Assembly (NCBI RefSeq): GCF_026226615.1
Contig: NZ_JAJAPB010000003.1
Coordinates: 186,001-250,000 of the forward strand
Length of the DNA stretch: 64,000 nucleotides
Direction: 5' to 3'
Origin: Geovibrio ferrireducens
GTDB taxonomy: Bacteria > Chrysiogenota > Deferribacteres > Deferribacterales > Geovibrionaceae
Shown in pieces: positions 57,411 to 58,707 of this stretch (within the stretch, counting starts at the first letter, position 1; each line of letters opens with the position of its first letter). Below the pieces are notes generated by a model. The model was not told where the DNA came from. It made no database searches and saw only the letters and a list, made by a program, of their open reading frames with translations. A program made the position numbers and the translations under genes.

Positions 57411-57815
57411 TTATTCGATACCGAAACGTTTCAGGTCATTCTCAAGGCTGTAAGAACCTGCCGCATCAACCATTTCCTCAGGAGAAGCAATATAAACATT
57501 TATTCTTTCTCCCTTTTCAGAGCTTTTATCAAGAAAACGCTTAAGATCGTTCTCAACGTTATAACTGCCGGAAGAGTCAACCATTTCCTCTGGCAGCGCC
57601 ACATATGCGCTTATCACCTCACCTTTTTCAATCCTGCCTGTGAAACGCTGAAGTTCGAGCTCCACACTGTAGCTTTCTGCGGCATCTGTCATCTCTGCGG
57701 GAGAGGCAACATAAGCATTGATTTTACTTTCCGGCTTCATGTCCATTCCCTCCATAGCCGAAGCGGCTCCGGCCGCGAGAAATACTGCCATTACAGGTAA
57801 TACGATTTTTTTCAT
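57411..57815 (-). CDS. secreted protein of three tandem 36-residue repeats
   Basis: 134 residues with a signal peptide ending ASA. The mature protein is three near-identical units at about residues 32-58, 68-94 and 104-130. Each runs I-N/S-A/V-Y-V/I-A-x-P-x-E-M-x-D-x-x-x-S-Y-x-x-E-x-x-L-x-R-F (for example VYIASPEEMVDAAGSY), and a short Lys/Glu linker separates them. No known domain is recognised. A Met-rich start (MEGMDM) and acidic repeats might bind metal, but this is a guess. A sigma-54-like promoter is seen upstream. Confidence 0.8.
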   Translation of the reverse strand: MKKIVLPVMAVFLAAGAASAMEGMDMKPESKINAYVASPAEMTDAAESYSVELELQRFTGRIEKGEVISAYVALPEEMVDSSGSYNVENDLKRFLDKSSEKGERINVYIASPEEMVDAAGSYSLENDLKRFGIE

Positions 57816-57865: not shown

Positions 57866-58008
57866 GAATATGCCAAAAACTTAAATAATTTATACAAAAG
57901 AATAAAATAATTATGAACCCAAAAAAGGAGTGCAATATCCGCACAGCAGTGAGCAAAAATTACATAATATCTATATAATTAATAGATATTAGGATAGGCA
58001 AAAAAAAA

Positions 58009-58031
58009 CGGGGAGCCTTGCGGACTCCCCG
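58009..58031 (-). terminator. terminator of the PepSY-like gene
   Basis: CGGGGAG/CTCCCCG stem, then eight T's on the minus strand, 24 bases past the stop. Confidence 0.85.
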
Positions 58032-58054
58032 TCGATTTTTAAGAAGGTTTATAT

Positions 58055-58429
58055 TTAGTTTGCAGTTATGGGGCCGAAAACGGAACCGTCCATCCTTACG
58101 TGGAAGAAGAATGTATTGCCGTTGGCATCTTTAACCGTTGCCTGGTAGGACTCGCCTCTGGGCATAACAAATTTGTCGAACTTATCAATTTTGAAGCCTT
58201 TGAAGTTTTCCGCTACGTATTTTTCAACAGCAGCCTTTGCCGCTTCCTCCGTTACGGGCTGAAAATCAGCCGCAGCAGACCCGCAGGGACCGCCGCCGCA
58301 AGGGGACTGATACCCGGCTCCGCCGCATCCGCCGAAACCGCCTCTGCCGCCCTTTGCTCCCGGACCATAGGCAAAAGCCATTCCGGCAGCCAAAACTACT
58401 GCAAGTGTTAACAATACTGCTTTTTTCAT
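58055..58429 (-). CDS. secreted Gly/Cys-rich PepSY-like protein
   Basis: 124 residues. Signal peptide ending AFA, a Gly/Cys-rich segment (residues about 20-52; CGGAGYQSPCGGGPCG, four Cys in all), then a PepSY-like domain (about 55-124): EEAAKAAVEKYVAENFKGF, YQATVKDANGNTFFFHV, MDGSVFGPI. PepSY domains often inhibit peptidases or sense redox, but this pairing with a Gly/Cys tract is unfamiliar. GGAGGAAAG precedes ATG 58429. Confidence 0.75.
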   Translation of the reverse strand: MKKAVLLTLAVVLAAGMAFAYGPGAKGGRGGFGGCGGAGYQSPCGGGPCGSAAADFQPVTEEAAKAAVEKYVAENFKGFKIDKFDKFVMPRGESYQATVKDANGNTFFFHVRMDGSVFGPITAN

Positions 58430-58465
58430 TTCTTTCCTCCGTTAATGTTAAAAGTCTGCCTTTTT

Positions 58466-58481
58466 AGCGCATTCCATGCCA
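58466..58481 (-). promoter_or_regulatory. possible sigma-54 promoter for the PepSY-like gene
   Basis: Minus strand TGGCAT-N5-GCGCT with GG-N10-GC spacing, 37 bases before the start codon. The -24 half is good and the -12 half is weak (GCGCT for TTGCA). Confidence 0.5.
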
Positions 58482-58547
58482 AAACGGCAGAATTGAGGTA
58501 AGTGCTTTATGATAAACATCAAACAGAAGTGTATATCCCGTCCGCGG

Positions 58548-58594
58548 TGTGCAGTTTCTGCACATCGGTGTGCAGGCATTTCATAGCTGCACAC
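58548..58594. promoter_or_regulatory. four-half-site enhancer-like array
   Basis: Two inverted repeats of the half-site TGTGCAG. IR1 58548-58564 is TGTGCAG-TTT-CTGCACA; IR2 58568-58594 is GTGTGCAG-N11-CTGCACAC. Their centres lie about 100 and 127 bases upstream of the predicted sigma-54 start, normal for an enhancer-binding activator. The rest of 58430-58707 holds no gene. Confidence 0.65.
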
Positions 58595-58707
58595 TGGTTT
58601 ACACCTGCGACTTTGTCTTTTTTGTTATCTCCTTTCAATAACTTCTTCCCAAATTTTTAAGTTGAGTATAAAATTCTTTAATCTTCACTAAGATACCGGA
58701 GCACAGC

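Follow-up and report, generated by a model that had tools for sequence, protein, structure and literature searches.

Which protein turns on the small gene at 58055..58429 (minus strand) of the window, the whole 64-kb stretch of Geovibrio ferrireducens DNA analysed here, and through which sites does it act? On the evidence of the open reading frame, its homologs and a structure model, the gene encodes a 124-amino-acid exported protein, rich in Gly and Cys, with a C-terminal alpha-beta4 (PepSY-like) domain. The original prediction proposed a sigma-54 promoter served by an enhancer for a dedicated activator, and this is borne out by the joint conservation of box and dyad, the quantised distances between them, the presence of rpoN and an activator that can be named. 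We strongly favor a single-gene sigma-54 unit in which a ZraS-like kinase and the response regulator L069, working through two dyads, would drive production of the exported Gly/Cys-rich protein.

The sigma-54 -24/-12 box, TGGCATGGAATGCGCT, occupies 58466..58481 and is read on the minus strand from 58481 to 58466, 36 bp ahead of the ATG of the target gene. The promoter predicted as TGGCAT-N5-GCGCT is present at this place and keeps the GG-N10-GC form, and the same box is found in both congeners and across the phylum. The usual -12 spacing predicts a transcription start at about 58455, and a Shine-Dalgarno sequence, GGAGG at 58436..58440 (minus strand), can be read directly from the sequence 6 bases ahead of the ATG. 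Measured against the consensus, the window box has 3 mismatches, with GCGCT in place of TTGCW, and there are 189 matches with up to 3 mismatches in the 64-kb window. Taken alone the box is weak evidence and unremarkable; it is significant because of its position just before the ATG and its conservation. Sigma-54 dependence is further indicated by the GG-N10-GC distance, by the one sigma-54 factor of the genome (rpoN; PF04552, E=1.7e-56, at G000:C3:148283) and by upstream dyads accompanied by a candidate activator. A sigma-70 scan gave no promoter for the target gene, an Rfam search over the region gave no RNA family, and a search against phage DNA gave no match. Directly behind the gene is an intrinsic terminator (58007..58033, minus strand) with an 11-bp stem and then a T run, and because so strong a terminator comes right after the gene, the unit is probably monocistronic. 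A downstream gene (57411-57815, minus strand) encodes a small secreted protein with three AYVASPEEMVDAAGSYSLENDLKRF-like units and no convincing Pfam family.

The half-site TGTGCAG occurs upstream at all four predicted positions, 58548-58554 (+), 58558-58564 (-), 58569-58575 (+) and 58587-58593 (-). The window has 13 copies against 7.6 expected, and these four fall within 46 bp. In the whole genome (2.97 Mb), the inverted pair TGTGCAG-N1..20-CTGCACA has just three occurrences, of which two lie here; the reversed control pattern has none. The copies had been drawn as two inverted repeats. The first, at 58548..58564, stands: it is the proximal dyad, TGTGCAGAAACTGCACA on the gene strand, perfect, 66 bp above the box and identical at the same distance in G001 and G002. 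The second, as drawn with N11 between its arms, does not; the conserved unit is a distal dyad at 58569..58585, TATGAAATGCCTGCACA, 87 bp above the box and matching at 10 of 12 half-site positions. Its counterparts are in register in the congeners (TATGAAATACCTGCACA in G001, TAGGAAATACCTGCTCA in G002), their weaker second dyad, likewise at 87 bp, being also written TATGAAATRCCTGCACA beside the G002 form. The fourth half-site, 58587..58593 (minus strand), is out of register and absent from both congeners, and is probably incidental. Read in this comparative light, the four half-sites resolve into a tandem pair of 17-bp dyads offset by 21 bp; the first is perfect, and in the second the outer arm is degenerate. 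The enhancer distance of 100-127 bp given originally is too large, as just 66 bp separate the enhancer from the upstream edge of the box. The half-site had also been described as matching neither the NifA nor the NtrC motif; compared with the sites of NifA, NtrC and E. coli ZraR, it fits none of the three.

Conservation was followed among relatives within the phylum (coded G001-G050), with homolog and pattern searches taking in 60 genomes. Homologs of the target gene are present in 44 of the 60 relatives. The congener orthologs, 88-90% identical, keep the box and the perfect dyad at 66 bp, and the pairing of a TGGCAY-N5-TGC box with a 17-bp TGTGCA-N5-TGCACA dyad recurs ahead of homologs across the Deferribacterales, and again in another family-level lineage of the phylum. 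Among more distant homologs, with about 31-50% identity, both elements are kept in eight other family-level groups (f2-f8 and f10). When the dyad score is averaged over 40 promoters it peaks at 64-66 and 84-87 bp above the box, with no other position rising above z = 3. The two preferred distances of the dyads, about 62-66 and 82-87 bp, differ by 20-21 bp, or two helical turns; one gene in G018 has perfect dyads at both, and in f10, the most distant lineage, the dyad lies at 72-75 bp. The combined pattern of a dyad, 58-88 bp and a box gives 16 matches in 10 of the 60 genomes and none in reversed controls, nearly all of them upstream of the target gene family; one match precedes a DUF4405 gene in G003, and one comes after the regulator gene in G022. 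(A 2-mismatch scan of the window's own genome gave 166 matches and is too permissive to be used alone.) By the standards of comparative genomics, the box and dyads are functional sequence. In G003 (L089:5194-7249, C2) a DUF4405 cytochrome-b-like gene adjoining the target homolog is preceded by a perfect dyad and a strong sigma-54 box of its own, and is likely an extra member of the regulon. The target gene also has a diverged second copy in the window's genome (L137:970-1500; G000:C2, about 99370-99917). Its dyad, TGTGCAGTTTCTGCTCA, lies at 83 bp, its box, GGGAACGGACTTTGCT, is weak, and it too faces a glycosyltransferase-9-like gene; a dyad and weak box of this kind are also present in G002.

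The most likely activator, to judge from sequence comparison, is the sigma-54 response regulator L069 (G000:C2:131017-132318; L102:7015-8322), one of 17 enhancer-binding proteins with a full sigma-54 activation domain encoded in the genome. It adjoins a ZraS-like membrane histidine kinase (G000:C2, L102:5719-7008) whose sequence has a Met/His-rich periplasmic segment. The best NCBIfam model for the kinase is ZraS, matched over its full length at E=1.6e-57, with 195 bits against the 479 needed for the curated ZraS cut-off; the regulator scores 410 bits against the 760 needed for ZraR and does slightly better, 428, with the AtoC model. In two sister genera, eight genomes (G004-G011) have dyads matching at 10-12 of 12 positions ahead of the kinase-regulator operon, perfect in G004, G006 and G011 and at best 10-11 of 12 in G005, G007, G008, G009 and G010; no sigma-54 box was seen beside these operon dyads. 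L069 is the own-genome ortholog, 66% identical, of the regulator in these dyad-bearing operons, and the regulator orthologs form one clade (support 100/99). Because the operon in the window's own genus has no clear dyad (best 6-8 of 12), the link between regulator and dyad in this genus rests on orthology. In G022 an enhancer and box come directly behind the regulator gene and are followed by a Gly-rich ORF and a PepSY-like ORF. Upstream of the kinase in L107, L110, L111 and L112, a block GGCAAATTTT..CCAATGTAAATTT..GGTGTATTATT is conserved below the operon dyad.

Regulator and promoter also tend to be present or absent together. A promoter (box plus dyad) precedes 41 of the 44 genes scored where the regulator is present and 1 of 8 where it is absent; counted by genome, at least one target promoter occurs in 27 of 27 with the regulator and in 1 of 8 without it, an association for which Fisher values overstate the evidence because the genomes are related. 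Three scored genes in regulator-positive genomes have no promoter, and the sole regulator-negative pass is a match inside the upstream coding region; G031, 73% complete, was excluded from the count. The pattern repeats within families: in f6, G016 has both regulator and promoter and g13/g15 have neither, and in f4, G028 has both and G021 neither. The DNA-reading part of the regulator varies as well. In f5, f7 and f8 the recognition helix has SRK in place of SRR, and the sites are of the TGTGTA-N5-TACACA type, degenerate in f7. A single clade for this change is not rejected (p-AU 0.29), so SRR to SRK may have been one event, and the joint change of helix and site counts as one event or more. 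We take the box, the two-dyad layout, their conservation and the association with an L069-type regulator to be established as far as sequence comparison goes.

It might still be argued that the promoter and dyads are real and that another of the genome's enhancer-binding proteins binds them. This would fit the missing dyad at the kinase-regulator operon of the window's own genus, and there is a second activator, L076, beside a porin-like gene that has its own site and sigma-54 box (a receiver-less sigma-54 activator of 326 amino acids adjoins the gene on G000:C19, L082:8678-11194). That site, TGTGCAGAACTGCACA at C19:18677, has N4 spacing, however, and lies 43 bp from its box, and it has no close ortholog in the congeners; the presence and absence pattern, the operon dyads of eight genomes, the linkage in G022 and the joint change of helix and site all pick out L069 orthologs instead. 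We therefore consider a different activator improbable, if worth keeping in mind. It is a good deal less probable that the dyads act on the divergent heptosyltransferase-like gene (58708 onward), alone or together with the target. The intergenic region is indeed common to the two, and by eye the second target copy too faces a glycosyltransferase-9-like gene, but in the different families the dyads keep a set distance from the box of the target, the heptosyltransferase-like side showed no conserved box of its own, and in G002, where an ORF of 489 amino acids lies between glycosyltransferase and promoter, the target still has its box and dyad. That a short palindrome and a weak GG-N10-GC match have come together by chance is scarcely credible: boxes with 3 mismatches are common in the window, but conservation at fixed spacing in both congeners and the phylum, with 0 matches in reversed controls, refutes it.

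The porin-like site was left out of the site count, the sole relative in the congeners being 32% identical with neither element upstream, and several further TGTGCA-N3..7-TGCACA matches fall within coding regions and are probably chance occurrences. A dyad at G000:C5:229621-229637 (L083:7622), TGTGCAGTTTTTGCACA, is conserved in all three members of the genus, between a DUF2318-like/ABC permease side and FixH-like, DsbD-like and copper-ATPase-like genes. It is without a sigma-54 box and was not included in the site count; possibly it reflects another mode of control by the L069 regulator.

The target had been described as an exported PepSY-like protein. That it is exported and Gly/Cys-rich agrees with the sequence, in which a signal-peptide-like N-terminus is followed by a low-complexity Gly/Cys region; its PepSY-like character falls below the Pfam cut-off (PepSY_2, E=0.19) and is nonetheless likely. 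In the structure model, Gly/Cys-rich residues 1-55 are of low confidence, and residues 61-121 form one helix and then four strands (H-E-E-E-E; pLDDT about 80), an arrangement compatible with a PepSY-like fold. Five of 15 homologs weakly match PF14620 (best 0.0038) and two match PF13670 (best 0.0022). A Foldseek search with the target model gave nothing significant, with no E below 0.001; the weak matches include FoxB, Rv0603 and YpmB, which we take to be PepSY-type proteins. Over the stretch that is Gly/Cys-rich in the target, the homologs have many Met, His or Cys residues, a composition that suggests metal binding.

What follows is inferred, the steps from signal to promoter opening being modelled on the well-known biology of the NtrC class. 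The ZraS-like kinase would detect a signal in the periplasm, for which a soft or transition metal ion or envelope stress is the likeliest candidate, and would phosphorylate the neighboring NtrC-class regulator. The Fis-type helix-turn-helix of the regulator would then bind directly to the TGTGCA-N5-TGCACA dyads, placed in tandem at 66 and 87 bp upstream of the box, and its AAA+ domain would open the sigma-54 promoter, so that the exported Gly/Cys-rich protein is made. In the manner of E. coli ZraP, that protein would probably bind metal or buffer the periplasm.

The closest working model is the ZraPSR (HydHG) system of E. coli, our reference here (PMC7657598, PMC8249747). In E. coli, binding of ZraR to the zraP/zraSR spacer points to autoregulation (PMC8249747); some of the genomes studied here have dyads ahead of the kinase-regulator operon. 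The kinase is 30% identical over its full length and the REC-AAA+-Fis regulator 45%; the target promoter is likewise of the sigma-54 type with two upstream repeats, and the output is a small secreted protein rich in Gly, Met and Cys. As judged from sequence, however, the regulon is not ZraPSR itself, departing from it in curated cut-offs, DNA site and output protein. The E. coli spacer has GAGTAAAAATGACTC-type repeats, presumably the ZraR sites, whereas the dyads here are TGTGCA-N5-TGCACA. BLASTP found no similarity between the target protein and ZraP, the target has a PepSY-like domain, and target and kinase-regulator genes are usually unlinked here. Activator motifs of the form TGT-N9/11/12-ACA are described for Desulfovibrio vulgaris, likewise found comparatively and beside sigma-54 promoters, and our dyad fits the TGT-N11-ACA class, although TGTGCA, TGCACA, ZraR and PepSY are absent from the main text of that paper (PMC4641369), to which this comparison is confined. 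The Zra2 system of Vibrio cholerae (VC1314-1316) similarly joins a ZraS-like kinase to a partner protein unrelated to ZraP, but its short regulator, compared with CpxR, is not a sigma-54 activator (PMC10848872).

A search of the open literature returned no published account of this regulon. On balance we think it likely that a two-component sigma-54 regulon extends across the phylum, in which a ZraS/ZraR-type pair would control a different kind of periplasmic protein for metal or stress handling, rich in Gly, Cys and Met and with a PepSY-like domain, and in which recognition helix and DNA site have changed together. Sigma-54 regulons have been little studied in this phylum, and a regulator, a DNA site and a target can now be named for genes for which we found no prior assignment. 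The SRR and SRK helices with their site variants offer a natural pair for studying how Fis-type activators read DNA. More broadly, ZraSR-type sensing coupled to sigma-54 seems to reach beyond systems that have ZraP, with another output protein in its place.
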